Source: Lactococcus cremoris subsp. cremoris NBRC 100676
GTDB lineage: Bacteria; Bacillota; Bacilli; Lactobacillales; Streptococcaceae
Length of the DNA: 64,000 nt
Reading direction: 5' to 3'
Assembly (NCBI RefSeq): GCF_001591705.1
Contig: NZ_BCVK01000001.1
Location: 1-64,000, forward strand
In this document: in pieces, positions 5,051-19,067 of the stretch
How positions within the stretch are numbered: the stretch's first letter is position 1
Layout of the letters: every line of letters starts with the position of its first letter
Notes under the pieces: model-generated
What the model was told of the DNA's origin: nothing
What the model saw: the letters and a program-made list of their open reading frames with translations, nothing else
The model's database searches: none
Made by a program: the position numbers and the translations under genes

Positions 5051-5130
5051 AGTCATTTTACCACTTTATAATAAAAATAAAAAAATATTTCGCTTAAAAA
5101 ATGATAGAATAGAATTAGAATTTAAAATAA

Positions 5131-5186
5131 AGGAGGAGATACGACAAGGCTGACTTTTATCGGCTGAGTTTTGTATCATATATTTT
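5131..5186 (+). other. Stranded leader left of the element, possible former luxS leader
   Basis: A strong Shine-Dalgarno AGGAGGAG (5131-5138) follows a TAGAAT -10 candidate (5105-5110), yet no start codon follows at a normal distance: the next ATG is the att copy at 5187, 48 nt further on, with no ribosome site close to it. This could be the native luxS leader separated from its ATG by about 45 nt of foreign sequence (which includes a degenerate AAGGCTGA at about 5146-5153). Inference only. Confidence 0.4.
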
Positions 5187-5205
5187 ATGGCTGAAGTAGA
5201 ATCTT
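5187..5205 (+). repeat. Left attachment site (attL core)
   Basis: The 19-mer atggctgaagtagaatctt is identical to 19049-19067, the start of luxS. Here it is followed by AATG, so it encodes only MAEVES and then TAA: a six-codon stub of luxS left by integration. Confidence 0.9.
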
Positions 5206-5253
5206 AATGTCTTCAAAGCTTAGATATCAATGCTTCCCTAAATTACCAGTTAA

Positions 5254-5275
5254 AAAAGCACAATAAAAAGCACAA
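5254..5275 (+). repeat. Integrase arm-type sites, left end
   Basis: Two direct copies of AAAAGCACAA at 5254-5263 and 5266-5275, 12 bp apart, about 50 bp inside the left att core. The same decamer recurs at 18921-18930 near the right end. Paired short repeats just inside both cores are the usual arm-binding sites of tyrosine integrases. Confidence 0.7.
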
Positions 5276-5496
5276 ATCAAGAGCGAAATAGGTAACAAAA
5301 ATCAGTCCAAACTACAGATGGACTGATTTTTTTCTTTTTAACTTATATTCTTCAATCTAAATTTTTTATAATCATCTTTATCACTTAGATACTTTAAATA
5401 ATCAATCTCAACTGAAAATAAAAATTAATTTTTATTGATAAAATATTTACTTATAGATAGAAAATTTGGGAAAAGTTTTATTGTTATATTAATTAA

Positions 5497-6519
5497 TTAT
5501 TTAGTTCCTTTTAATTGATTAAAAATTATTGCTCTTAGTAAATCATCTAATAAACAACAGGTAACTAAAAATATCCAATTCAATCTGCTATATTCAGAAT
5601 AATCAAAAGTATAGTTTGTCATGTATTTTTGTGCAAATTTTTCTGCCTTATCATTAACTGCTTTAAAATCACCATGCGCAATTTTATTTCGTATTTGTCT
5701 TAAAATCATTGCGACATCTGTGGAATCATCACCATAATTTTTTTCTAGATAGGGAATTAATAAGTGATCAATATTAGTTTTTTGATTAGAAGCTACTAGT
5801 AATAATTCTAATAATGAGAAAACTTTCAAAAAGTGATTTTTATTATAACTATTATCTTGGTATATACTATTTATAATATAATCTAATTTATAATAATCAT
5901 TTTCTGAATTTAAGATACCATCTATACGCTTTCCCATTTTTTGCAGTTCAATTATATAATCATCTTTGGATTTCCAATTATTAAATTTAGAATCAATTCG
6001 AAAATTTAAATTTCTAAGTATTCTGGTATGTTCTAATGGATTCATATTACTTGTGTAAATACAATTCATATGAATACCATTTTGGACTCCCTGATTTACA
6101 AAATTACTAAAATACATTACTTTTTCTGCATAATCTTCTTCGCAAAAGCGTCCTTCAAAACAATTTGTTGTCCAATCAAAGAATGGCATATCTTCATCAT
6201 CATAATCAAAAAATAAACATACCATATTATCGGCTAAATAATCTAAGCATTTTTCGATTGTTTCCAAGCCATGATCTGGACATTGTTTTATATTTGTTTC
6301 AATAATTCTCTTTAGCGAAGCTACTGTATATTCACTTTGAAAACTGTCCCCATACCTTCGCAAATTATCTTCAATATCAACTTTTTGTTGCCGAATTTCC
6401 TGCATCATATCTTCAACGATTCCCTCTTTCCAATCACTGGGGACATTAGATATATATAATTTTAACTTATCCGATATTTTTGTTTTTGCTATTTTTCCAT
6501 AAACATCAATAACTAGCAA
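5497..6519 (-). CDS. HEPN-domain protein, putative defence RNase effector
   Basis: 340 aa, no close family recognised. The C-terminal third has the HEPN/ApeA-like signature IRQIRNKIAHGDF (R-N-K-I-A-H, an RX4H motif at about residues 270-276) preceded by a helical region (KVFSLLELLLVASNQK). HEPN domains with this motif are metal-independent RNases common in abortive-infection and toxin systems. The N-terminal two thirds are acidic and unassigned. TTG start at 6519 with GAGGAG 9 nt upstream. It lies 113 nt downstream of the DUF4062 gene on the same strand, with no clear terminator between them, so they probably form one unit. HEPN assignment rests on motif and context only. Confidence 0.65.
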   Translation of the reverse strand: MLVIDVYGKIAKTKISDKLKLYISNVPSDWKEGIVEDMMQEIRQQKVDIEDNLRRYGDSFQSEYTVASLKRIIETNIKQCPDHGLETIEKCLDYLADNMVCLFFDYDDEDMPFFDWTTNCFEGRFCEEDYAEKVMYFSNFVNQGVQNGIHMNCIYTSNMNPLEHTRILRNLNFRIDSKFNNWKSKDDYIIELQKMGKRIDGILNSENDYYKLDYIINSIYQDNSYNKNHFLKVFSLLELLLVASNQKTNIDHLLIPYLEKNYGDDSTDVAMILRQIRNKIAHGDFKAVNDKAEKFAQKYMTNYTFDYSEYSRLNWIFLVTCCLLDDLLRAIIFNQLKGTK

Positions 6520-6632
6520 TTAAATTTTCTCCTCTTAACTATAGGTTGGAGGAAGGCGCATCACGCACGATTCTCACTTAGATTAATACTGGGTCATACT
6601 ATTTATATAAATTCTTTTCTTCTTTGTAAACA

Positions 6633-7659
6633 TTAATTTCTTCTAATAGCAGACTTTTTTACCATATATTCCCTCCCCTTAGATGTCAGATTAATAAATT
6701 CTGCTGTTCCCCCTTGAGTAGTTCTAGCCTCATAATATTTTATGAGGCCTAACGCTGAGTATTGAATTTTAATCGTATGAAACTGATTATCATTCAATTT
6801 TATATATCTGCCCATATAATCTTTGAGTGCGTACTCCAGTTCACTTTTTGATTTTCTACAATTTAATGTTACAGTTAATCTAGGAGCCCATAATAAAAAC
6901 ATTTTATCCCATGTGATACTTTTTTCTATGTTTCTATCATGATAAATAGGAGACATACTCTTGGATTTTTCAGAATATGTCGCCTGAATAATCACTTCTT
7001 CCCCTTCAAATGCTAGGTCTGACTCAAATGTATCTTGCATAGAATTTATTTTTTGGCTAAGCATATTACTCTTTTTTATCAATTGTTTATTTTCGATAGA
7101 TAGTTCATTAACCTGTGTAAGTAATGCTGTATTAACTTCTGAATCATTCGCCCTAACCCAGCCAACCATATCATATTCATCCAAAAAATCCACTAAAGTT
7201 GAATGAACAGCTAGCATAATATCTTTTGGATCACTCACCATGCGAACAATTCTAGACAGGACAAGTTCTTTAAATTCCTTGTACTTGTCTATGTTATCTT
7301 GTTCATAAATTTTATCTACACCAAGTGTAGATTTTTTTTCTTTTAAAAAGTCATCGGTTAAAACTACAGAGAAAATAGGAATTCCTTTGCTAATTGCGTA
7401 TTCATATTCAAGACGTGTGTAACTTTTTTGAGATTTTTCCTCTACACTGCCATACCTACCACCAAGAATCAACATATATACATCAGAGTTATCTATCCAT
7501 TTATATATAGTATCTAATTGAGTCTCATTTCCAGCTCTAAAAAGTTCCATTCCTGCAGGTATATGTCCAGAATCTAAAACCGCTTGAACAGATGACTGAC
7601 GTTCATCAATTAAATCAATATATGTTGATGAAATGAAAATTTGAAGTTTTTTTTACCAA
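6633..7659 (-). pseudogene. DUF4062 (TIR-like) protein with 5' frameshift at an A8 tract
   Basis: The open frame starts at the internal Met (MELFRAGNETQ, 7550) and gives 305 aa, but the true N terminus lies upstream in the same frame: KLQIFISSTYIDLIDERQ, the hallmark start of DUF4062, a TIR/STING-related sensor or effector domain. A TTG at 7659 is well spaced after AGGAGAG, but the following run of eight A (7647-7654) puts it out of frame; seven A would give MVKKLQIFISST. No ATG/GTG/TTG lies in the correct frame before 7550. Residues after about 150 of the open part form a short coiled coil and a winged-helix-like tail. The break may be real, a slippage switch, or a sequencing error. Confidence 0.75.
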
Positions 7660-8301
7660 GATACCATCTCTCCTTTATTTATGCTAATTTTATCATAGCG
7701 TTAAGCAACAAACAATATATTATTTTTTATGTTGATTATGCTTTTGTTTTAATCGCTGATTAATCAGTGGATTTCTCTGTGTTAATATATCAATCGATCT
7801 CAGAACTACCATATAGGTTCACGGTAGTTACTGCATCTGAAATAGGATTCTCCAATTCTTCTTCTGATTCATAATAAAAATTTTTTATTTTGACTTCATC
7901 AAGCAAAACAGCAAATACCATCTGCTCACTATATAATAGAGTTTAAGTTATAACAACATAAAAAAAGTTGATTTGCCATTGACAAGACATTACTCAACTT
8001 TTCTCTCACCTACATATTCCAATGTTCCAAAAGCCATTAACGCATTAGGAATACTTTATTTTAATTCCTTAATCTCTATAACGCAAAAAAATTATATATA
8101 TAAAATTATGTGTAGCCTTTTTCATTACTATCAATCAATCAATCAATCAATTAATTAATTTACCTTCTCAATAAGAGAAACAAGCTGTAAAATAGGATTC
8201 TTCTGCTCATGATCTTATATTTTGTAACTTCATTTGCTATCACCCCAATAATCTTGAAAATATATTTCATCCTCTTTTTTACAAAACAATCATAGATAAT
8301 A
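7660..8301. other. Gene-poor stretch in the element cargo
   Basis: About 640 nt with no convincing gene. It holds a weak 43-codon minus-strand frame (7790-7921, acidic, poor ribosome site), a TCAA tetranucleotide run at about 8129-8152, and at 8160-8210 a minus-strand reading (EQKNPILQLVSLIEKVN, stop) that looks like the C terminus of a lost regulator. It appears to be decayed sequence. Confidence 0.4.
8129..8152. repeat. Short TCAA tetranucleotide tract
   Basis: Five consecutive copies of TCAA/ATCA followed by TTAA repeats. It lies outside any supported gene; only a 61-codon plus-strand frame of no recognisable kind crosses it. Confidence 0.6.
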
Positions 8302-8616
8302 TCATTTTTTCGCTTCATTATGATTATTGAATTGCTCTACGATAGCGATGAGTTGAAAAAACAACTGCATTTGTTCATCTGTTAATCCCCCCATCTCTAA
8401 TGGCATCTTATCAGATATCCCCAAAAGATAATCTGCAGATATATTCAGAGTATCACATAGCTTTCCAAATATTTCTAAAGATGGATAGGCACTCCCCTGT
8501 TCATATGATGCAACTGTTCTTGTCTTCACTCCCACCTTTTCGGCAAGCCCCTTTTGAGTTAAATTTTTACTTTTCCTAGCTGCTTTTAACTTATCGCCTA
8601 AATACTCAATATTCAT
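8302..8616 (-). CDS. Cro/CI-type (XRE) transcriptional repressor
   Basis: 104 aa. Residues 5-65 form a complete XRE helix-turn-helix (LKAARKSKNLTQKGLAEKVGVKTR, with SYEQGSAYPSLE and SADYLLGIS). The short tail (about 35 aa) is probably for dimerisation. It is divergent from the lipoprotein gene at 8757, and the 140-nt gap between them carries two related palindromes that are good operator candidates. It probably represses itself and the lipoprotein gene. There is no peptidase domain for SOS-type self-cleavage. Confidence 0.85.
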   Translation of the reverse strand: MNIEYLGDKLKAARKSKNLTQKGLAEKVGVKTRTVASYEQGSAYPSLEIFGKLCDTLNISADYLLGISDKMPLEMGGLTDEQMQLFFQLIAIVEQFNNHNEAKK

Positions 8617-8673
8617 TTTTTTCGTCCTTTTTTAAAGATTATCAAATATAGGTATTTTGTAAATGACAATACG

Positions 8674-8740
8674 CTCATTTAAAATGTTGTTTTTTGGTTT
8701 TTTTGGTATAATAAATAGCACAAAGAACATTTTTAATGTT
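8674..8740. promoter_or_regulatory. Paired palindromic operators between XRE and lipoprotein genes
   Basis: AACATTTTTAATGTT at 8726-8740 is a perfect 15-bp dyad (arms AACATT/AATGTT). A related site (minus strand AACATTTTAAATGAG, 8674-8688) matches at 12 of 15 positions. Centres are 52 bp apart, about five helical turns. A TATAAT at 8707-8712 lies between them, so a repressor bound at both would cover the lipoprotein promoter. Confidence 0.6.
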
Positions 8741-8756
8741 AATTTAGGAGGATAAT

Positions 8757-9755
8757 TTGAAAAAACTAAGTCTTGCTCTAACCTTTGGGATGAGTTTAAT
8801 ATTGCTAATTGGATGTACTTCAGAAAAAAATCCCACTTCTAAGAATCATGAAACCATACAAACGTCTTCTTCCACGACATCAAGTCCGACTATTGATGAA
8901 ATAAAAGGAGGTAAAGAAAACAGCTATGATTTTGTAGATTTTTGGGGGATTGACTACAAAGCGCCTCAGAATATCAATGGTATTGTTGGGTATTACGAGT
9001 TACCCGACTCTCCTGAAACTCCCATTAAAATTTACTCTGACGGTCGATATACTCGTATTTTACGTGCATCTCAAGCACCTATAGATGAAGCAGCTCACTC
9101 ATCAAAAATAGAGTTTTATTTTGATGAAAATAATAAAGTTCAAACAAACCCCTTCTATACCAACAATGGCGAATATAACACCCTTTCTCAAGGAAGAATT
9201 GTGGAAAAAAATGGAATCTATTTCTTAGTCCCATTATCCTACTCAAGTGAGTTATACCTTAACGATAAAGCTGAAGCAACTTATGTCTTTACCGACGCTC
9301 AACAAAATAAAGATGAAATGAGTAGTATTCTCAAAGACACCTCTAAATTCAGTGAATACAGTTTCATTAAAAATGGATTATTCTTCAACTCTGCTAATGG
9401 AGAAACAGATGAAGCTGGCATAAAAAAAACAGGCAATCCTGATTTAGAAAATCTTCTTGACAGTAAGCCTCTATTACTTCATAACAAGCCATTTCCCATA
9501 GCTACTATAAATCAACTTTACTCAAGGAGGAACAATATCAATGTGAGTGATTTAGTTGCTCTAACACCAAAGGAACTTGATTCTATTGACTTTGATAAAA
9601 TATCTAGAGACACAAAAGAAAAATTAAAATTTGGTTTTAAATATTCTACTTCTGTCGTTGATAAAATTTTTGTAACTGATGGCGATTATATTTATGATGT
9701 TTCACAAGATCAGCTAGGAATGCATGCTGAGCGTCAAACAGTTATTCCAAAATAA
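8757..9755 (+). CDS. Secreted lipoprotein, unknown function (element cargo)
   Basis: 332 aa with a lipoprotein signal peptide: basic start, hydrophobic core (LALTFGMSLILLIG) and lipobox LIGC with the acylated Cys at residue 20. A Ser/Thr-rich linker follows (TIQTSSSTTSSPT), then a soluble extracellular domain of about 280 aa that I do not recognise. TTG start with AGGAGG 7-8 nt upstream. It stands alone, divergent from the XRE repressor and closed by a strong terminator. A surface lipoprotein on an integrated element may act in superinfection or mating exclusion, but nothing in the sequence proves that. Confidence 0.8.
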   Translation: MKKLSLALTFGMSLILLIGCTSEKNPTSKNHETIQTSSSTTSSPTIDEIKGGKENSYDFVDFWGIDYKAPQNINGIVGYYELPDSPETPIKIYSDGRYTRILRASQAPIDEAAHSSKIEFYFDENNKVQTNPFYTNNGEYNTLSQGRIVEKNGIYFLVPLSYSSELYLNDKAEATYVFTDAQQNKDEMSSILKDTSKFSEYSFIKNGLFFNSANGETDEAGIKKTGNPDLENLLDSKPLLLHNKPFPIATINQLYSRRNNINVSDLVALTPKELDSIDFDKISRDTKEKLKFGFKYSTSVVDKIFVTDGDYIYDVSQDQLGMHAERQTVIPK

Positions 9756-9770
9756 GTATTACTTACATAA

Positions 9771-9803
9771 AAAAACAGATAGAATTAAATTCTATCTGTT
9801 TTT
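9771..9803. terminator. Terminator after the lipoprotein gene
   Basis: Perfect dyad centred on 9787: AAAAACAGATAGAATT with AATTCTATCTGTTTTT, ending in a T run. Confidence 0.85.
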
Positions 9804-10006
9804 CAATTTTTATTACCCCTTAAAGATGACTTTTACTCATGTAAATACCATTTCCCAACGCACTGATAACCTAACATTCTAAATTCAGCCTCTCTCCTAT
9901 TAGCTAAGCTGATAGCCAGAGAGACGAGGGAATATCCTGTGTCATTCTTTCTCAAATTTAGCAGATAAATATCCTACCAATCAAAGTATCCAGTGGCACA
10001 TCCAGT

Positions 10007-10588
10007 TTATTTATTATTTAAAAATTCTTTTTTAATAGGAATTCTAAGGTGTTTAGGGAGAATTTGATTAAGTTCTTCATCTGTAAAAAATTGTTCTTCT
10101 TCAGTTTTTAAAGCTTTTTGAGCCATAGCATAACTATCTGCATCTGTTTTAGGCGAAGTTTTATAAACATTGTGAGTGTCATCTTGTAACATATCTCTTG
10201 TGGCTATTATTTGATCAATTGTCATATCATCCATATCTGTCAAAAGAGAAATATACTTTTCCCTAATTAACCAAAGATCATTAGCAGCAATTTGATGCTC
10301 TTTTGACAAAGTATCCAACTCAAAATTCTTCAAATAGATATTCAATCCTAATGATAATACAGAAGCTAGACCAGTCACAAATTTTAGAAATCCTTCATTG
10401 AAAATAAATGTAGATAAAAATCCACCAGTAGTAATCGCTGAAAGAGCAATTTGACAACTTTTCATTCTATTATTTTTCAAAATTAGTTTATCAACAGCCT
10501 TTAAATGAGTAGTATTGGAATAAACTATTCGTCCATAAGCTTCTCTTAGTTGTGCTCTAAGTTTTTCTTTTTGTTCTGGGCAGCTCAT
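10007..10588 (-). CDS. SLATT-domain two-TM effector of a CBASS operon
   Basis: 193 aa. Two closely spaced membrane helices (about residues 44-63, CQIALSAITTGGFLSTFIF, and 68-88, FLKFVTGLASVLSLGLNIYL) flanked by helices, the layout of SLATT domains (SMODS- and SLOG-associating two-TM effectors). The gene begins 18 nt after the CD-NTase stop, in the same operon. In such systems the second messenger made by the CD-NTase is thought to open a membrane pore and kill the infected cell. RBS AGGAGG precedes the ATG at 10588. No separate nucleotide-binding domain is evident; the sensing part may lie in the 100-residue C-terminal region. Confidence 0.82.
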   Translation of the reverse strand: MSCPEQKEKLRAQLREAYGRIVYSNTTHLKAVDKLILKNNRMKSCQIALSAITTGGFLSTFIFNEGFLKFVTGLASVLSLGLNIYLKNFELDTLSKEHQIAANDLWLIREKYISLLTDMDDMTIDQIIATRDMLQDDTHNVYKTSPKTDADSYAMAQKALKTEEEQFFTDEELNQILPKHLRIPIKKEFLNNK

Positions 10589-10606
10589 GAAAATCCTCCT
10601 TATTAT

Positions 10607-11431
10607 TTAAGAGTTTATTTTATTTAATACCTTACCGAGACATTCGAAACTGTCTGTCGTATCAACAAGTTGACCACTACCAGGAGCGTGTAATGTTAAG
10701 AAGTTTACCCCATACATAACCTTATTATTATAATAGTTTAATAGAATTTGTTCATAACTCTCAGAGTTTGAAATACTGGTTCCTTTTTCTACATACCTCC
10801 AATTATTCATAGCGGCGTATACAAAACTATCTATTACTATTCCTGATAATTTATAACTTTTATAATAAGTGTCTCTGATATATCGGAGGTGTCTACATGT
10901 AGCAATGAGTAATCCATTACTTTGAGATTGACTATTTTTTGACTTCATAGCCTCTTGTTCTGCTTTAGGATTTGTAGATTGCCAAGATCCTCCCATATTT
11001 GAATTAGGATATATATAACTTGTTTCTTTTGTCCAATAATTTTCCTCTTTAAACGCAGGTAGTAACTCGAATTGAATACCATCATGAAAATTGATTTTTA
11101 TAATTTGACCATCTGCTCTTACATCACTCATTGGGTAGGATTTTTTAATAGCAGTTCTGACCGCTTGTAGTAACCTAGAGGGTCCATTACCAGATATAGT
11201 TTGAAATCTATTATACTCACTTATAGGGAGTTCAACTAATATATCAATATCACTTGTATTGATGGCAGTTCGTCTTCCATATGAGCCAACATAAAAACTG
11301 TGTAAAGTGTCACTTTCTGATTGCCAAAACTCGCGGTTAATAGCTCTAGTAACGATACGGTACCTTTTTGAAATTGTTTGTCTTGTATCTAAGGTAATGG
11401 CACCAGAGTGACGAGCGACTGAATAATTCAT
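10607..11431 (-). CDS. CD-NTase (SMODS) cyclic-oligonucleotide synthase of CBASS
   Basis: 274 aa. The nucleotidyltransferase core is clear: GSYGRRTAINTSDIDILVEL (about residues 49-68) gives the GS motif and the D-x-D metal ligands; the third acidic residue lies in IQFELLPAF (about residue 123-131). The second half is helical, as in bacterial cGAS/DncV-like enzymes. It should make a cyclic di- or trinucleotide on phage infection. Only a SLATT effector follows; no Cap2/Cap3 or HORMA/TRIP13 genes are near, so this is a minimal (type I) CBASS. Product and clade cannot be told from sequence by eye. Confidence 0.88.
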   Translation of the reverse strand: MNYSVARHSGAITLDTRQTISKRYRIVTRAINREFWQSESDTLHSFYVGSYGRRTAINTSDIDILVELPISEYNRFQTISGNGPSRLLQAVRTAIKKSYPMSDVRADGQIIKINFHDGIQFELLPAFKEENYWTKETSYIYPNSNMGGSWQSTNPKAEQEAMKSKNSQSQSNGLLIATCRHLRYIRDTYYKSYKLSGIVIDSFVYAAMNNWRYVEKGTSISNSESYEQILLNYYNNKVMYGVNFLTLHAPGSGQLVDTTDSFECLGKVLNKINS

Positions 11432-11804
11432 ACTTTTTCCCCCAAAATAGTTTTACTTTTATATTAATTATACCATATCAAAAAAAATGGAATGTTTTTA
11501 ATAAATTGAGAGTCTTTTGAGCTTTTACAAATCTAGTAAATTGTCATTTTAAATTCCTAGATGTTTTAACTAAAACACCTCTATCGAAAAATAAACCTAT
11601 GGATGAAATTAAGGTAAGTCACTTCATTTTTGCTAACTCGCTATTAAATAGCGGCAGAATTTCTATAAAAAGGAATATCATAAATAACACTAGTTAGATA
11701 AAATATTTTTCTGCAGATTTTTAATTTGTAAGATAGACTGGGGTGCCTAGGAGTAACTATGAGGCAATAATTATAGATGTAGTAGCTACTCAACAAACAG
11801 CAAA

Positions 11805-11842
11805 CTGTCCCATACTTTTAGCGCAAAAAGTCCCTGGGACAG
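11805..11842 (-). terminator. Hairpin, likely terminator of the 539-aa HTH gene
   Basis: CTGTCCC (11805-11811) pairs with GGGACAG (11836-11842), with an inner ACTTTT/AAAAGT stem. On the minus strand it is followed by TTTGCTGTTT, a weak U-rich tail, so it may end the gene that stops at 11979. Confidence 0.5.
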
Positions 11843-11873
11843 AAAAGAAACAAAAAAAGCCAAGCGCTAGATA

Positions 11874-11930
11874 GCCGGCGCCCGGGTTCAAACTGGCACG
11901 ATCGTGAGATCACTGGATTTTGAGTCCAGT
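11874..11930 (-). pseudogene. 3' half of a tRNA-Leu(CAA), relic
   Basis: Read on the minus strand, CTGGA-CTCAAAA-TCCAG is an anticodon arm with anticodon CAA, followed by a long variable arm (TGATCTCACGATCGT), a degenerate T arm (GTTTGAACCC) and an acceptor 3' strand CGCCGGC. The 5' half (acceptor and D arms) is missing and the T stem has mismatches, so it is not a working tRNA. Such 3' fragments are typical att remnants of elements that integrate into tRNA genes. Confidence 0.7.
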
Positions 11931-11978
11931 TGTGTCCTAACATTCTATATTTCTCGAAAAGAAAAGTAGCATAAATTA

Positions 11979-13598
11979 CTATTTTTTACCGAATATCTTT
12001 TCTACTATTGAGGGCACTAATAAATCATCAAAGAACGCTAATAAATCGCAATAGGGCAAATCAATATTACTTCTAAGTTTTTCAACCGCATACCTTTTTA
12101 CTTTTTCTTTTAATTCTTGGTTATTATTCAGAAGAGCTAAATTGGCAAAATCTATAACCTCACTGGACTCTTTATCTGACAAATTTTCAAAAGAATAGTC
12201 TGAATGAAACCACTTGAATACACTTGGAACCGTTAAAAATAAAGCCAGCCCTTTCGCTATTTCTTCAACATCCTCTACACTATGATTATCTGGGGAATAC
12301 AAAAATTTAAATTTAAAATAAGGAAACTTTATGCCTTTCCCATTTTCAAGAAGAGAAACAAGCTCATCTAGCTGTTCTTTCTGCTCTTCAACGAAGCATC
12401 TATTTTCACTTACTTCTTTTAACAGATCCACATGCTCTTTTTTAAATATCCGACTTAACAATGTTTCATCTTTTCTAATTATGTAATCAACCTGTTGATC
12501 ACTCATATCAAGATAAGAAGCTAAATTTGGCAAATTTTTATAAGCCTCCTCATTTGGAATAATTTCACGTACTACTTTCAGATTATGGAATTCTCTAAAA
12601 AATTCAGTTACTACATTTTCTTGTACTTCCTCGGTCAAGCTATTTTCCATATCATCTTTTAATTGCTTGATAACCAAAGACTTACCACAGTAGAAAAACA
12701 GAACCTGAGTAAAAAATTCTAGGGTTTCGTAATAGAGAAAATCTTCATCTTTTTTTCTTAATTTTTCATCTATGTCTGGTAAAAACATACCTTCAAGTTG
12801 CCATTTTGGAAATTCATAGCCTAAAAATGCCATCTTACCATTCAAATGTAATAGCTTCTTCAATTTAGATAAGTTTTCTTCTGTTGGAAAGTCTTTTCCA
12901 ATTTTCCAGTTTCTGATTTGAGTTTTGCTTACTTTTAATTCCTGTGCAAGCCAAAATTCCGCAATAGATGAAATGAAAGAAATCCCCTCAAGTTCTTCAT
13001 AGTCTTCTTCATGTGGAAGATTGTTATAAAATTGCTCAGCGCGTTCTCTCGTCCAGTTTTCACAAAGTAAAGCTTTAACATTTTTCTCTGAGTTATTATC
13101 AATAAAATCAATCAATAAATTAAAGTTTAAAACAAACATGGATTGATACTGTTTTTTTATTTTTCGCTCAATCTGTCTTTTATGATCAAGATTAAAGCCA
13201 CTCCTGCTATTAAAGTTTATGTATGAATCAAACAGTCCAAAATCCAATGATGGTTTTAAAAATCGGAGCGCTTCTTGATTATCTGCATGATCTGACAGAA
13301 TAGTTGCTTCCTTATTATTATTTCTTGGCATTTCTTGTAAAACTTCTTCCGTATATCTATAAAAATTTTCAAGTGGCTCCCTATATTCTTTTTTTAGGGG
13401 GAAATTAAAGTCATTTTCTGTAAGGACTTCCAAAGTAAAATTCCTCAATTTTAACAAGTTGTCTTGATTGGGCTTACTCTCTCCATTTCTCCACTTCGAT
13501 AGATTAAGCTTCGCTATTCCTGTTCTTTCATGAATCTTATTGTAGGTAAATCCCATTTTACTCAAAATATTCAAAAGTTCATTTATAAAATTATCCAT
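11979..13598 (-). CDS. Large protein with several helix-turn-helix units, unknown function
   Basis: 539 aa, family not recognised. An XRE-like HTH lies at residues 8-50 (YNKIHERTGIAKLNLSKWRN then GESKPNQDNLLKL). A second one lies near residue 215 (WLAQELKVSKTQIRNWKIGK, DFPTEENLSKLKKLL) and a third, weaker, near residue 375 (LASYLDMSDQQVDYIIRKDE). The spacers are acidic and helical; no membrane segment or enzyme motif is visible. It is divergent from the sigma-like gene at 13868, and the gap between them contains an inverted repeat (TATCAAGA/TCTTGATA, 13682-13706). It could be the element's main regulator, or a defence sensor beside the CBASS operon. Confidence 0.75.
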   Translation of the reverse strand: MDNFINELLNILSKMGFTYNKIHERTGIAKLNLSKWRNGESKPNQDNLLKLRNFTLEVLTENDFNFPLKKEYREPLENFYRYTEEVLQEMPRNNNKEATILSDHADNQEALRFLKPSLDFGLFDSYINFNSRSGFNLDHKRQIERKIKKQYQSMFVLNFNLLIDFIDNNSEKNVKALLCENWTRERAEQFYNNLPHEEDYEELEGISFISSIAEFWLAQELKVSKTQIRNWKIGKDFPTEENLSKLKKLLHLNGKMAFLGYEFPKWQLEGMFLPDIDEKLRKKDEDFLYYETLEFFTQVLFFYCGKSLVIKQLKDDMENSLTEEVQENVVTEFFREFHNLKVVREIIPNEEAYKNLPNLASYLDMSDQQVDYIIRKDETLLSRIFKKEHVDLLKEVSENRCFVEEQKEQLDELVSLLENGKGIKFPYFKFKFLYSPDNHSVEDVEEIAKGLALFLTVPSVFKWFHSDYSFENLSDKESSEVIDFANLALLNNNQELKEKVKRYAVEKLRSNIDLPYCDLLAFFDDLLVPSIVEKIFGKK

Positions 13599-13681
13599 CT
13601 ACTTTTTGCTCCTTTTTTCACAAAGATATTGTTTCTTCCATTTTGCCTTTTTGTTGATTTTATATTTTGAGATGATAAGTA

Positions 13682-13706
13682 TATCAAGAAATAGTAAGTC
13701 TTGATA
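13682..13706. promoter_or_regulatory. Inverted repeat in the divergent control region
   Basis: TATCAAGA (13682-13689) and TCTTGATA (13699-13706), 8-bp perfect arms separated by 9 nt, in the intergenic region between the multi-HTH gene and the sigma-like gene. It is a candidate operator for either product. Confidence 0.4.
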
Positions 13707-13867
13707 AATTCTAAAAGTCCAAAAATGGTGGCGCCATCAAAACGGACGGATTGAAACACAGAAGAAGCGAATAAATGTTTGCCAATTCTGATTTTCTCCA
13801 AAGTTTTGACACCTTTTATCAAAATTAGAGATTGTTTCTTTCCTTCCTTTTGGCGGAAAGAAGCCCA

Positions 13868-14440
13868 ATGAGTAAAATTGAAGAACGTCATGATAAAGAA
13901 CTCATCGAAGCGATCAATCGCGGAAATTTGAAAGCTTTAGAAAATAAATATCATGATTTACTAAAAAACGCAACAGTTGACGATGCCAAAGCTTTAGAAA
14001 AGCTTTACGAAGAAATTGTTGAAGCCGCACAAAATATTAATACCAAAGCTTCAGAAGCATTAGATAAAAAAATTGAAGCTAATCATCAGCGTAAGCTTCG
14101 CTATCATCATATCCTCAGTACCAATTACAAAGTCGGAGCAACAAAATCGAACGAGCTAGAAGAGTTTCTAACCAGTAGTGATTTAAACCCAGAAGAAGCT
14201 CTGATGGCTAAGGAAAAGCAGATTGAGCGTAAATATAAATTAGAAACCGCTTTGCAAACTCTGAACCCCATAGATTCAATTATCTTTACAACCTATCAAG
14301 AGTCTGGATTTTATCCCTCTCACCAAAATTGGAAAGAATTATCTGAGACCCTCCTTACCAAAGGGATTCAAATGAGTGATAAAACGGTTAAAAAACACTT
14401 TACAAAAACATTTATACAGCTTCAATCACTTATGAAATAG
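13868..14440 (+). CDS. Sigma-factor-like regulator of the element
   Basis: 190 aa from the ATG at 13868 (an open frame extends upstream to 13832 but GGAAAGAAG fits the later start). The N-terminal 85 residues are charged and helical. The C-terminal 65 (ALQTLNPIDSIIFTTYQESG ... MSDKTVKKHFTKTFIQLQSL) resemble region 4 of a small sigma factor or an ArpU-type regulator. It has its own terminator, so it is a separate unit ahead of the transfer genes, and probably controls them. Similarity is structural and weak; a plain DNA-binding protein is the alternative. Confidence 0.6.
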   Translation: MSKIEERHDKELIEAINRGNLKALENKYHDLLKNATVDDAKALEKLYEEIVEAAQNINTKASEALDKKIEANHQRKLRYHHILSTNYKVGATKSNELEEFLTSSDLNPEEALMAKEKQIERKYKLETALQTLNPIDSIIFTTYQESGFYPSHQNWKELSETLLTKGIQMSDKTVKKHFTKTFIQLQSLMK

Positions 14441-14444
14441 AGCT

Positions 14445-14482
14445 AAAGCCAATTAAGAATCTCTTCTTAATTGGCTTTTTAT
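14445..14482 (+). terminator. Terminator after the sigma-like gene
   Basis: AAAGCCAATTAAGAA pairs with TTCTTAATTGGCTTT around a TCTC loop and ends in TTTTT. Confidence 0.85.
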
Positions 14483-14563
14483 ATTATCGGTCACATTTTC
14501 CTTTTATTTTAATTTTACCACAAAGAGTTTAGTAAAAATATTTTGTAGTAAGCTCTTTTATAA

Positions 14564-14614
14564 AAAACTCCGAAATTTCGATTTATTTCTCCTGATAGAT
14601 AGAAAGGTAATAAA
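14564..14614 (+). repeat. Repeated 51-nt leader, copy 1
   Basis: Aligns without gaps to 16801-16851: 43 of 51 positions agree and the last 28 are identical, including GAAAGG. Copy 2 directly precedes the rep ATG; copy 1 lies 66 nt before the next gene and ends where a start codon would be expected, so a small gene may have been lost here or the repeat may be a binding site. Confidence 0.7.
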
Positions 14615-14680
14615 TCCAGCTCAGGATATAAATCGAGCAGTCATACACTACTATTTAGATTCTAGAAAGGAATCCTACAC

Positions 14681-14998
14681 ATGAAATTTAATACACGTCG
14701 TCAAACTGGTTACTCATCATCACTCGCTCATTCCATCATAGATAAGAGCAAGCCTGTTCATTCTATATCTGATTCACTTACTCCCCAACAAAAATTTGAA
14801 GATAAGAAGCCGACGGGAGAAATTATCGCTTATAAAGCATGGTTTACACAGGTTGGTTTACCTCCTTTTGAGATCAAATTTTCTAATGAAGTTCAACTTC
14901 CACCATATTTGTCAGTAGTGGAGTTTATTAACCTTCAAGCTGTGGAAGTATCTTATAATGTCTATTTCAAGGCAGATGGAATAAAAGAGGTCAAATAA
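14681..14998 (+). CDS. Small conserved transfer-module protein (DUF961-like)
   Basis: 105 aa, no signal or membrane segment. The C-terminal half (EVQLPPYLSVVEFINLQAVE, then NVYFKADGIKEV) resembles the end of DUF961/YdcP proteins that precede the FtsK-like gene in Tn916- and ICEBs1-type elements. Its stop codon overlaps the ATG of the next gene (14998), which also mirrors that gene order. GAAAGG precedes the ATG. The similarity is weak, so the family call is tentative; role in the transfer or replication module is inferred from position. Confidence 0.55.
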   Translation: MKFNTRRQTGYSSSLAHSIIDKSKPVHSISDSLTPQQKFEDKKPTGEIIAYKAWFTQVGLPPFEIKFSNEVQLPPYLSVVEFINLQAVEVSYNVYFKADGIKEVK

Positions 14999-16074
14999 TG
15001 ACAGACTCACAACTCAATCTCTACATTCTCCAAAGCTTAAACATGGCCCTCGGATCACAAATGCAAGGGGAAACAAGCTATACTAATTCTTTCGATGTCA
15101 AGATAAAGAAAGAGGGATTTTATTTTATCCCTCGCCTGCCAGCAGGCTACATCATTGATGACGAATTATATCAGAAGATTTTTCTAATCGCCAGTGCATC
15201 TCTTTATCCACGCTACACTTTGTTAAAGCAAACCTCTGCTTATTTTGTCCCACTTAATACAGATGATATTCACATTCAACGTGCCTTGTTCTTTCCTTGG
15301 AAAATAGGAATTTCAAAACGGCTCATTATTTCAAATTTAGAACAATTCACATCTTCACAAAGTGGAACAAGAATCCCTCTCATGGAAAATCTCACCATTG
15401 ATTTTGATAAGGTAACCAGTATTGCCATCGCGGGGAACTCTGGAAGTGGAAAATCTTATGCTTTAACATACTTCCTAACGATGCTCAAACCTATCTCAGA
15501 TTTGATTTTAATTGACCCAAAATTCGATACTCCCTCTCGCTGGGCAAAGCTCAATGATGTGAAAGTAATACATCCTGCAATGAACCGCAGTAAATCCGAC
15601 TTTGTTTCTGAAATCAATGAAGCACTTGCCAAAAGTTTGAATCTCATCAATCAACGTCAAGCAATTCTTTACGAGAATCCCGAACATCAGTTCACTCATT
15701 TAACAATTGTTATCGATGAAGTTCTCGCTATTTCTGAGGGTGTGAATAAAGCAATTAAGGAGTCCTTCTTCTCACTACTTTCTCAAATTGCCTTGCTTGG
15801 TAGAGCTACAAAAGTTCATATGTTACTTGTCAGTCAGCGCTTTGACTATCACTCAATACCTATAAGTGTACGTGAGCAGTTAAACGTACTTATGCAAATC
15901 GGTAACATCAATAGTAAGACCGTTCAATTCTTATTTCCTGATTTGAATCCCGAAGGTATTGTTATCCCCAATGGGAAAGGTACAGGCCTCATTCAAGTCA
16001 TTGATAATGAGCACCCCTACCAGGTATTGCCTCTTTTGATTCCCACCTATTATACTAGAAAAGGTATCTTATGA
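14998..16074 (+). CDS. FtsK/SpoIIIE-type DNA translocase (TcpA-like coupling ATPase)
   Basis: 358 aa. Walker A is AGNSGSGKS (about residues 142-150), Walker B is HLTIVIDEVLA (about 234-244), and LLSQIALLGRATKVHMLLVS with QRF is the conserved FtsK-family end of the motor domain. No membrane helices are in this protein; the next gene, overlapping by 4 nt, encodes a 2-TM protein that may anchor it. In integrative elements such ATPases deliver the relaxase-DNA complex to the transfer machinery or help Rep unwind DNA. Length fits the short TcpA class rather than chromosomal FtsK. Confidence 0.88.
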   Translation: MTDSQLNLYILQSLNMALGSQMQGETSYTNSFDVKIKKEGFYFIPRLPAGYIIDDELYQKIFLIASASLYPRYTLLKQTSAYFVPLNTDDIHIQRALFFPWKIGISKRLIISNLEQFTSSQSGTRIPLMENLTIDFDKVTSIAIAGNSGSGKSYALTYFLTMLKPISDLILIDPKFDTPSRWAKLNDVKVIHPAMNRSKSDFVSEINEALAKSLNLINQRQAILYENPEHQFTHLTIVIDEVLAISEGVNKAIKESFFSLLSQIALLGRATKVHMLLVSQRFDYHSIPISVREQLNVLMQIGNINSKTVQFLFPDLNPEGIVIPNGKGTGLIQVIDNEHPYQVLPLLIPTYYTRKGIL

Positions 16075-16673
16075 AAAAATCGTACTTCATCAAAACATTC
16101 AATTTTAACTTAAATCTGTTTATGTACTCAATTTTGGGATTATTCCTTGTTTTATTATCTGGAGTATTCGCTTCAAAAATGGGAACTTTACGAAATTTTT
16201 CTCCATTGAGCAAGATTCCTGATTATTTTGACAAACTTCATAATTCAATTGTCATGGCAACCGTCCCCTTGGTTCTTTTACTTATGTTTTCTATAGTATT
16301 TGAAATCATCTCACGTTTGAAAAAAGATGCATTATCAAATTATCTCAAATCTATCATCGAAACCTTCAGCTTAAGACGGTTTGCCTTACAAAGCGAACAC
16401 ATTGACAAAACACTTCCTGAACCACAGTCAAAAATAACTGTTAATCCAATTTATCATGATTTTAACCGAGCAGTAAAAAAATCAGTGGTAGATATTACAG
16501 AAAATCAAGTGCTTGTGTTTTTCAAAATTCCACACTCACAGCAAGCTCAAAAAATCCTAAAAGAAATGGAAGAGTTATTGAGAGAAGAAATTTCAAGTCG
16601 TAATCCTGATTACATCTTCTCAACACCCGAACGTATTAAAAACCAGCTTTGGTTTACCGGTACTAAAAGATAA
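16071..16673 (+). CDS. Two-TM membrane protein of the transfer module
   Basis: 200 aa. Two hydrophobic helices, at about residues 18-36 (YSILGLFLVLLSGVFA) and 61-84 (IVMATVPLVLLLMFSIVFEI), then a cytosolic 110-residue tail. No family recognised. ATG overlaps the stop of the FtsK-like gene (ATGA at 16071-16074), so they are coupled, and a partnership as membrane anchor is likely. Followed by a hairpin and the replication origin. Confidence 0.75.
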   Translation: MKKSYFIKTFNFNLNLFMYSILGLFLVLLSGVFASKMGTLRNFSPLSKIPDYFDKLHNSIVMATVPLVLLLMFSIVFEIISRLKKDALSNYLKSIIETFSLRRFALQSEHIDKTLPEPQSKITVNPIYHDFNRAVKKSVVDITENQVLVFFKIPHSQQAQKILKEMEELLREEISSRNPDYIFSTPERIKNQLWFTGTKR

Positions 16674-16676
16674 TCT

Positions 16677-16718
16677 AAGTGGTGCTCGCCTTGCAACGCA
16701 AGAGGTGAAGCACCACTT
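16677..16718 (+). terminator. Two-tier hairpin after the transfer genes
   Basis: AAGTGGTGCT (16677-16686) pairs with AGCACCACTT (16709-16718); an inner CTTGC/GCAAG stem lies at 16690-16702. TTTATATTAT follows. It may be a terminator or a second origin structure beside the nick-site hairpin. Confidence 0.65.
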
Positions 16719-16732
16719 TTATATTATCCTAT

Positions 16733-16778
16733 ATTATTGAACTAATGGGGTGACTACGACCCCCATTAGTTCAATAAT
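16733..16778 (+). other. Rolling-circle replication origin (dso) hairpin with nick site
   Basis: An 18-bp perfect inverted repeat (16733-16750 with 16761-16778) exposes a 10-nt loop TGACTACGAC. The loop contains ACTACGAC, matching 8 of 9 positions of the pMV158/pLS1 nick sequence TACTACGAC, which RepB cuts between G and A; here that would be between 16758 and 16759. The rep gene of the matching family starts 75 bp downstream, as in pMV158-type plasmids. Hairpin and match are seen directly; function is inferred. Confidence 0.85.
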
Positions 16779-16800
16779 CAATAATCACATCAATGAGATA

Positions 16801-16851
16801 AAAACTCCGAAAATCTCGATAAATTCTCCTGATAGATAGAAAGGTAATAAA
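16801..16851 (+). repeat. Repeated 51-nt leader, copy 2 (rep leader)
   Basis: Second copy of the 14564-14614 sequence. It ends in GAAAGG and leads straight into the rep ATG at 16854. Confidence 0.7.
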
Positions 16852-16853
16852 AT

Positions 16854-17480
16854 ATGACTAAAAAAATCAAAAAAGAACAGCGTACCAATAAATGGGCGTT
16901 TCTCATCTATCAGGAATCTGCGCCTAAAGATTATCTCAACATACTTGAAGAGCTACATGTTCCTTTCATTCTCAGTCCATGGCATGACAAAGACGTCAAT
17001 CGCTCAACTGGTGAGTTCAAAAAGTCTCACAAACACGGTGCACTGTTCTTTGAAACCTTGAAAAGTTATAGTCAAGTCTCAGAACTTTTACAAGATAGAT
17101 TAAACAGCCCATCACATGTAGAGGTAGTCATGAGCCCAAAAGGTATGTTTGATTACTTCACACACGCAGAGAATCCAGATAAAACACCCTACAACATCGA
17201 GGATATTGAATCTGGGGCAGGATTTGAATTAGACAAATTTCTTTGCGAGCAAGCTTCTGGCGAGTTCCTAAATGAAGTCATTGACCTTATTGAGAAAAAT
17301 AACATTACAGAGTTTGAAGAGTTGATTTATTTTGCAAGAGTAAACAACTACTTACTATTAAGTTTAGTAATAGATAAAACCTATTTCTTTGCAAAATTTC
17401 TTGACTCTCGTCGTTATAATCCAAGACGAAAAGCTCCAAAAGATATCACAGATAAAGAGGATGAGGAGAATAATAATTGA
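16854..17480 (+). CDS. Rolling-circle replication initiator, RepB/Rep_2 family
   Basis: 208 aa, close in length to pMV158 RepB (about 210). It shows the HUH-type metal site (SHKHGALFFE, about residues 61-70), an upstream SPWHDKD motif, and the nucleophile region MFDYFTHAENPDKTPY, where the Tyr of DYFTH is the likely nicking residue. It should nick the origin at 16758/16759 and prime leading-strand replication, keeping the excised circle. Since no other relaxase is present, it might also start transfer. Its stop overlaps the Xis start. Confidence 0.9.
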   Translation: MTKKIKKEQRTNKWAFLIYQESAPKDYLNILEELHVPFILSPWHDKDVNRSTGEFKKSHKHGALFFETLKSYSQVSELLQDRLNSPSHVEVVMSPKGMFDYFTHAENPDKTPYNIEDIESGAGFELDKFLCEQASGEFLNEVIDLIEKNNITEFEELIYFARVNNYLLLSLVIDKTYFFAKFLDSRRYNPRRKAPKDITDKEDEENNN

Positions 17481-17674
17481 TAAAAAAATTTATGACTAAA
17501 GATGAGATTTCTGAATACTTTTCTGTTAATAAAGGAACGCTTGGGAATGATTTAACTGCTATGCGACGTTTGTCTAAGTTTTCTAACTATATTATCAACC
17601 CAACAGTAAAACGTGTTCTAATTGACCCAGTAGGCTACGAGAAATATCTCCGTTGGAAACAAGAACAACGTTAA
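17477..17674 (+). CDS. xis: Excisionase-like winged-helix protein
   Basis: 65 aa, basic. FMTKDEISEYFSVNKGTLGN and the following helix (DLTAMRRLSKF) form a MerR/Xis-type winged helix; VKRVLIDPVGYEKYLRWK is the usual short tail. TTG start at 17477, overlapping the rep stop, with GAGGAG 9 nt upstream; an ATG six codons in is the alternative. Position directly before the integrase is that of directionality factors, which bend DNA at the att sites to favour excision. Confidence 0.78.
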   Translation: MIKKFMTKDEISEYFSVNKGTLGNDLTAMRRLSKFSNYIINPTVKRVLIDPVGYEKYLRWKQEQR

Positions 17675-17693
17675 AATCGACCAAGGCGGAATA

Positions 17694-17702
17694 TGGTATA
17701 AT
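17694..17702 (+). promoter_or_regulatory. Extended -10 promoter of the integrase gene
   Basis: TGGTATAAT (TG at 17694-17695, TATAAT at 17697-17702) lies 44 nt before the integrase ATG and has no good -35, as allowed for extended -10 promoters. It would let the integrase be made independently of rep and xis. Confidence 0.6.
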
Positions 17703-17745
17703 AAGAATACCTATTTCGCCTTTTACTTATGAAAGGTTAGACAAA

Positions 17746-18900
17746 ATGTATAATAAAAAATTACCAAACGGAAAGGTTAAATTTTTCGATACTTATAAAT
17801 CTTTAAATGGAGAACGCAAGCAAGTAACTATAACATTAGAAACCGCTAGCGCACAAAGTCAAAGACAAGCTAAAAGTTTAATTGCTCAAAGGATTGAGAA
17901 AAAACTTACCGCTGAACGTGAAGCACTTGATATTCTTCATAATGCCACTGTATCCCAAGTTTTTGAGGTTTACTGGAATATAAGAAAACAAGAAATCGCT
18001 GAGAGTTATGCTTTATGTGAAAAACAAAAGTTTGATACATTTTTAAATGATTTTGATTTTGGAAACAAAAGGATCAAATCAGTCACCAGTATTGAACTTC
18101 AAAAATTTGTGAATTTCTTTGATAAGCCACATACTAGAAGAGAGTTCAAACGTCACTTAATACAATTCTTTGACTTTGCTTTTGCTATGCGATATATTGA
18201 TGTAAATGAAGCACAACGTATTAGAATACCAAAAGTTAAACAAACTATTGAGCAAAAAGAAAAACATGATTTGAAATTCTTTACAGTTAAAGAATTTAAT
18301 GAATTTGTAAAGTCAGCAAAATGTTATATACAGAATTTACGCTCTTCTTATCATCGAGAAATGGGGATTAGGCGTCTACTCTTATTACAATTTATCTTTT
18401 TAACTGGTTGTAGATATGGGGAAGCGGCAGCACTTGAATGGAAAAACGTAGACATTCTAATGCGTGATGTTTATATTCGCCAAAGTTGGCAAATTAATCT
18501 TGGAAAAGTTGGTCCAACCAAAAACATTCAATCTGTTCGTCATATTGCAATAGATGAACGGACTGCGGAAATCTTGGAAGAGATGAGAACGAAATCAGAT
18601 TGTAGTTTCGTATTTCCAACTATCCATAAGCAACCTTTTCCAAATAGCGCACTAAATAAGTTCATGAAAAAAGTCGGAGATTACGGTGGAATGGCAAAGA
18701 ATCCCAAGTACTTCTCAACCCATATGTTGCGACATTCTCACATCACCCTTCTTGTTCTTGCAGGCGTTCCACAAAAAGTAATTATGGATAGAGTTGGACA
18801 TTCTAGCCCACGAACTACAAGTGAGATTTATACACACTTAATTTCATCTCAAAAACAACAAGCTGTAAAGGTTTTAAATGATTTACCCCGAATTGCCTAA
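17746..18900 (+). CDS. int: Tyrosine recombinase (integrase) of the element
   Basis: 384 aa from the ATG at 17746, chosen because GAAAGG (17731-17736) precedes it; an open frame extends back to 17653 but would overlap xis and the promoter. N-terminal arm-binding domain (KVKFFDTYKSLNGERKQVTI), SAM-like core-binding domain, then catalytic domain with Arg in LTGCRYGEAAALEW, H-x-x-R in HMLRHSH, a later His in VGHSS and the nucleophile Tyr in SEIYTHL. It catalyses integration into the 19-bp luxS site and excision. It sits 150 bp from attR. Confidence 0.95.
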   Translation: MYNKKLPNGKVKFFDTYKSLNGERKQVTITLETASAQSQRQAKSLIAQRIEKKLTAEREALDILHNATVSQVFEVYWNIRKQEIAESYALCEKQKFDTFLNDFDFGNKRIKSVTSIELQKFVNFFDKPHTRREFKRHLIQFFDFAFAMRYIDVNEAQRIRIPKVKQTIEQKEKHDLKFFTVKEFNEFVKSAKCYIQNLRSSYHREMGIRRLLLLQFIFLTGCRYGEAAALEWKNVDILMRDVYIRQSWQINLGKVGPTKNIQSVRHIAIDERTAEILEEMRTKSDCSFVFPTIHKQPFPNSALNKFMKKVGDYGGMAKNPKYFSTHMLRHSHITLLVLAGVPQKVIMDRVGHSSPRTTSEIYTHLISSQKQQAVKVLNDLPRIA

Positions 18901-18911
18901 AGTATATTTTA

Positions 18912-18930
18912 GGCACAACAAAAAGCACAA
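18912..18930 (+). repeat. Integrase arm-type sites, right end
   Basis: GGCACAAC at 18912-18919 and AAAAGCACAA at 18921-18930, the same motif and spacing as at 5254-5275. They lie just after the integrase stop codon and about 120 bp from the right att core. Confidence 0.65.
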
Positions 18931-18992
18931 CTTTTCAGTTAAAAATGATGATTTTTAATGAAATAGAAAAACAACAAAAATGCTTATGAAGC

Positions 18993-19021
18993 TTGATATT
19001 ATAAGCTTTATGAAGTATAAT
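18993..19021 (+). promoter_or_regulatory. Element-borne promoter now driving luxS
   Basis: TTGATA (18993-18998), 17-bp spacer, TATAAT (19016-19021): a near-consensus housekeeping promoter. GGAG at 19037-19040 is correctly spaced before the luxS ATG at 19049. All of it lies left of the att core, so it belongs to the element, not to the original luxS locus. Confidence 0.8.
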
Positions 19022-19048
19022 GAAAGATAAAGAAATGGAGAATTTTAA

Positions 19049-19067
19049 ATGGCTGAAGTAGAATCTT
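19049..19067 (+). repeat. Right attachment site (attR core), start of luxS
   Basis: The 19-mer atggctgaagtagaatctt, identical to 5187-5205. It begins exactly at the luxS ATG, so recombination keeps the luxS protein unchanged while replacing all upstream DNA. Confidence 0.9.

Follow-up and report, generated by a model that had tools for sequence, protein, structure and literature searches.

Integration of a mobile element into the 5' end of a conserved gene, with replacement of that gene's promoter, is already known from streptococci. ICEs of streptococci target rbgA, ftsK or ebfC at their 5' ends, and for two rbgA ICEs and the ebfC ICE the upstream sequence, including the promoter, is completely different, for which the authors suggested altered expression (Ambroset et al. 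2016, PMC4701971). With SpyCI, mutL is normally silent; in SpyCIM5, the gene is rescued by a cryptic promoter within the decayed int (Scott et al. 2012, PMC3430984). Streptococcal IMEs with a Rel_PF01719 relaxase and TcpA use other sites (Coluzzi et al. 2017, PMC5357655). The luxS gene is absent from the text of PMC4701971 and from the main text of PMC5357655, outward promoters are likewise absent from the latter, and a literature search, with subscription journals outside its reach, returned nothing relevant on luxS as a lactococcal integration site. Here, we describe an element integrated at luxS that carries its own promoter and ribosome site towards this gene; luxS as the site, the conserved cassette and the fixation of this cassette appear to be new.

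The window analyzed comprises the first 64,000 nucleotides of contig NZ_BCVK01000001.1 of Lactococcus cremoris subsp. cremoris NBRC 100676. Within it, two 19-bp direct repeats, both beginning at the luxS ATG sequence, flank an element that extends over ~5187-19048 (13.9 kb) and has a GC content of 32.1%, compared with 35.9% for the window. The core ATGGCTGAAGTAGAATCTT is identical to luxS nucleotides 1-19, its second copy is found only at the far end of the element, and its initial 17 bases have no further occurrence genome-wide. Upstream of the ATG, identity between the two ends does not exceed background. An initial reading of the sequence by itself (the sequence-only reading) had placed the start of the core at the ATG and ascribed all DNA 5' of luxS to the element, which the repeats and the lack of upstream identity confirm. 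The core hence lies inside the 5' end of luxS and leaves the LuxS N-terminus unaltered. The span 18993-19067, to which that reading referred, combines promoter, Shine-Dalgarno (SD) motif and core.

Table 1. Features of the luxS-integrated element and its junctions (window coordinates)
Feature	Position	Strand	Basis
Displaced native luxS leader: extended -10 TGATAGAAT, SD AAGGAGGA, hairpin GATAC...GTATC, 9 nt to start codon	5067..5186	+	G007 leader match; helix and spacing
attL, other 19-bp core copy, then in-frame TAA giving MAEVES*	5187..5205	+	direct repeat
Candidate integrase arm site GCACAATAAAAAGCACAA, left end	5258..5275	+	direct repeat D14
Intrinsic terminator inside left end	5297..5339	.	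fold -15.3 kcal/mol, z -4.4, T-rich tail
Cargo: CD-NTase cyclase and SLATT_4 2TM effector, CBASS-like defence pair	10007..11431	-	profile matches
FtsK/TcpA-like ATPase, candidate coupling protein	14998..16074	+	weak PF01580, E 1.5e-4, under cutoff; syntenic in G001, G052
Rep-type initiator/relaxase	16854..17480	+	PF01719, E 2.2e-44
Small ORF overlapping int, candidate excisionase	17477..17674	+	position and size; conserved in G001, G052, G017
Tyrosine integrase (int), outward-facing at luxS end	17653..18900	+	PF00589, E 9e-24
Candidate integrase arm site GCACAACAAAAAGCACAA, right end	18913..18930	+	direct repeat; kept in G001, G044, variant in G050, G052
-35 hexamer TTGATA, outward promoter of element	18993..18998	+	sequence; invariant in six element/scar types
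-10 hexamer TATAAT, 17-nt spacer	19016..19021	+	sequence; invariant in six element/scar types
SD GGAG, 8 nt 5' of luxS ATG	19037..19040	+	sequence; invariant in six element/scar types
attR, 19-bp core at luxS junction	19049..19067	+	direct repeat
luxS, S-ribosylhomocysteine lyase, 158 aa	19049..19525	+	NCBIfam NF002609, 353.9 bits vs cutoff 275

The arrangement TTGATA-17-TATAAT with a well-spaced GGAG, pointed out in the sequence-only reading, is indeed present at the element end (Table 1), its hexamers scoring 11/12 as a predicted promoter. This score was equalled in 19 of 2000 dinucleotide shuffles of 18901-19048, and a promoter of this quality together with an SD-like motif arose in a single one of 2000. 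Across six element/scar types, all 16 positions of promoter and SD are invariant, compared with 43/99 positions overall (hypergeometric P 2.3e-7), and the 17-nt spacer is better conserved than its flanks (10/17 vs 17/66, P 0.012). An operator within this spacer (a CTTYATGAAG dyad) was considered and dropped, the dyad being imperfect in the window and not element-specific. A search allowing up to two mismatches located the promoter motif in 8 of the 295 family genomes, in each at luxS; G052 has one more copy, at the end of its older element. Controls with reversed patterns all gave 0. In the excised circle, the promoter would be followed by a short ORF of 6 codons and then a terminator, which leaves luxS as its one evident target as far as the sequence goes; no + strand gene lies ahead of that terminator, which rules out a promoter driving element genes in the circle. 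Like the luxS element, the rbgA, ftsK and ebfC ICEs have a tyrosine integrase, leave the N-terminus unaltered and have their direct repeat placed within the 5' end of the target gene, which is conserved; what sets the luxS element apart is its outward promoter and SD, both conserved in diverged elements as well as in scars. SpyCI resembles it in that its target is a housekeeping gene, entered at the 5' end, and in that element DNA can supply a promoter, with the state of the element controlling mutL; unlike the SpyCIM5 rescue promoter, the luxS element promoter sits between int and core, in intact elements.

An uninterrupted version of the locus is available in G007, the nearest relative, which has the same neighbours without insert and a LuxS protein 98.7% identical. 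Its luxS leader matches window positions 5067-5186 in 112 of 121 alignment columns and shows no resemblance to the element end (394/500 shuffles equally good). Because the uninterrupted leader matches this segment, the native promoter and leader have been moved 13.9 kb by the insertion. Comparison with G007 thereby supports both that integration replaces the promoter and ribosome site of luxS and that excision would restore a different leader, as had been proposed from the sequence. The stranded leader now reads into the core, an in-frame TAA and then the left-end terminator, where transcripts from the native promoter are predicted to end.

The native promoter itself scores 9/12, a value reached by 1221/2000 shuffles, and has an extended -10. 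In five leaders (displaced in the window, G007, G012, G011 and attL of G001), the SD AAGGAGG ends 50-78 nt 5' of the ATG. A predicted stem GATAC...GTATC lies between the two, and bypassing it leaves 9-11 nt in all five; loops vary in length and sequence, with the stem ends kept. Individual shuffle p values for the hairpin range from 0.002 to 0.30, in single-sequence folding the stem is not the best structure in the G011 leader, and an Rfam scan of the native leader gave no match above the gathering score. A split SD brought close to the start codon by the hairpin is therefore suggested by the modelled structures, not proven. T4 genes 25 and 38 have split translation initiation regions with a hairpin between SD and AUG (PMC3014915). 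The predicted layout of the luxS leaders is the same, in that the hairpin would shorten an over-long spacing to a functional one, but the T4 spacings are 22-27 nt, whereas the 50-78 nt of the luxS leaders are predicted to be cut to 9-11. Native luxS leaders with an SD 50-78 nt out and an intervening hairpin were seen in the L. lactis group (L142, L007, L008, L139; window 5100-5186), and those of L. hodotermopsidis and L. insecticola have a comparable layout in other sequence. In L. taiwanensis (L020, upstream of luxS at 10001), the native leader breaks off after TTTCGCTTAAAAATG and gives way to unrelated sequence with another promoter-like stretch and an SD, possibly the scar of a different insertion at luxS.

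With an integrase of its own, flanking direct repeats and a PF01719 relaxase/Rep, the element resembles Rel_PF01719-type IMEs, further similarities being a candidate FtsK-like ATPase, the outward orientation of the tyrosine integrase at one end and tandem accretion with decayed elements. It fits an integrative, putatively mobilizable type; the putative transfer module is assigned from a strong family match for Rep and a weak one for the FtsK-like ATPase, and no oriT was identified. The candidate excisionase had no family match in the profile search. Besides the CBASS-like pair, cargo at 5497-7550 encodes a DUF4062 protein and an unassigned 340-aa protein; none of these four proteins was found in the G001 element. 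A 52-nt repeat (85% identical) is located at 14563-14614 and 16800-16851, one copy immediately preceding the first ORF of the transfer module (14681) and the other Rep (16854); with its SD-like AGAAAGG it is a possible shared regulatory site. A search of viral contigs and plasmids gave no relatives of the integrase, the promoter end or the element. More distant integrase relatives (30-56% identity) stop ~100-270 nt short of the start codon of galE, tdk, yqeH, miaA, tig and other genes. In L. termiticola G017 (L141, reverse complement 9879-11201), a 56% identical integrase lies ~150 nt before a galE-like ATG, with a similar arm site and SD. Targeting of start codons throughout this integrase clade stays a lead, the distant relatives yielding no convincing core repeats in the stretches examined.

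The same end is found 5' of luxS in G001, G052, G044 (L. piscium), G050, the L. plantarum genomes G033 and G060, and G005 (L. hircilactis). G001 harbors an intact element at the same position (int 94% identical) with the same backbone and other cargo, its own native leader being displaced at attL. The intact element of G052, also at this position (int 77% identical), is inserted next to the right end of an earlier, decayed element; of the latter, a 3' fragment of int was all that could be found. Two int fragments remain upstream of luxS in G044; G050 keeps arm site and promoter, with int not found, and in G033, G060 and G005 neither an integrase fragment nor an arm site was found. The 70 nt upstream of the promoter in G033 and G005 resemble the G052 and G044 ends (0/1000 shuffles) and, more weakly, that of the window. 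We read the promoter-bearing leaders in the piscium/plantarum group and L. hircilactis as apparent remnants left by the right end of the element, and in several Lactococcus species the element appears to have been reduced or lost with the donated leader remaining at luxS. The sequence-only reading expected empty-site strains to be free of this promoter. This holds for G007, G012, G011, G016, G002 and G013; the piscium/plantarum-group and L. hircilactis genomes do carry the promoter without an intact element, but in these apparent remnants.

Taken together, it is probable that the element carries a replacement promoter and ribosome site that keeps luxS on. Upon integration, a dedicated consensus sigma-A-type promoter and an SD at the integrase-side end would become the start of luxS transcription and translation, while sequence and comparison place the native promoter and leader 13.9 kb off, facing a terminator inside the far end. 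The gene would thus have two leaders, the native one (extended -10, split SD and hairpin) without the element and a consensus promoter with a plain SD in its presence. Since it would keep luxS expressed and the insertion thereby tolerated, the cassette is probably maintained by selection; after decay of the element, the remnants suggest that the donated leader would stay as the luxS leader. With the element active, luxS could in addition receive transcripts reading through from the mob/int operon, because no terminator-like site was detected between int and luxS.

Weaker promoter matches are abundant in AT-rich DNA, at ~3.4 per kb for 9/12, and the element end might merely be promoter-like by chance, with luxS transcribed otherwise; the rarity of an 11/12 match with SD in shuffles and the invariance of both motifs across diverged element ends make this very improbable. 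The promoter could also have been ancestral to luxS of the piscium/plantarum group, taken by the element via imprecise excision or recombination and carried to the L. lactis group. Its presence in 5/5 piscium/plantarum-group genomes examined, two of them without detectable arm site or int, is what such a capture would leave, but we regard it as rather doubtful, given that the region upstream of the promoter in G033 and G005 is also element-end-like, that an arm site survives in G050 and int fragments do so in G044 and G052, and that other Lactococcus_A species share a different luxS promoter.

A regulatory role would add to the replacement-promoter reading, and the two do not exclude each other. 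If the leaders respond differently, integration and excision would set luxS output and, as the sequence-only reading suggested and much as for SpyCI and mutL, tie AI-2 and flux through the methyl cycle to the activity of the element. The two states do differ in promoter class and leader structure, the mob/int operon points at luxS with no terminator detected, and the conserved 17-nt spacer leaves room for an operator. Such a switch nevertheless seems unlikely, as luxS is predicted to be expressed in both states, unlike mutL under SpyCI, and as the donated leader persists in element-free species, a persistence for which no switching is required. A cassette that keeps luxS on, and so makes the insertion tolerable, accounts for the conservation and fixation of the promoter no less well than regulation does.

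As a replacement of the luxS control region, the element offers a clean, testable case of a mobile element that brings a conserved promoter and ribosome site for its target gene, beyond tolerating or breaking the target. More tentatively, and with somewhat less than even confidence, the element lineage may act as a vehicle for a regulatory cassette, exchanging the split-SD hairpin leader of luxS for its own promoter and plain ribosome site across Lactococcus; the leader would become permanent after decay, repeatedly rewiring methyl-cycle and AI-2 control. The donated control DNA seems to be the resident luxS control region in several species. For luxS, which acts in the activated methyl cycle and in AI-2 synthesis, this means that regulation may vary among strains for reasons unrelated to luxS itself.
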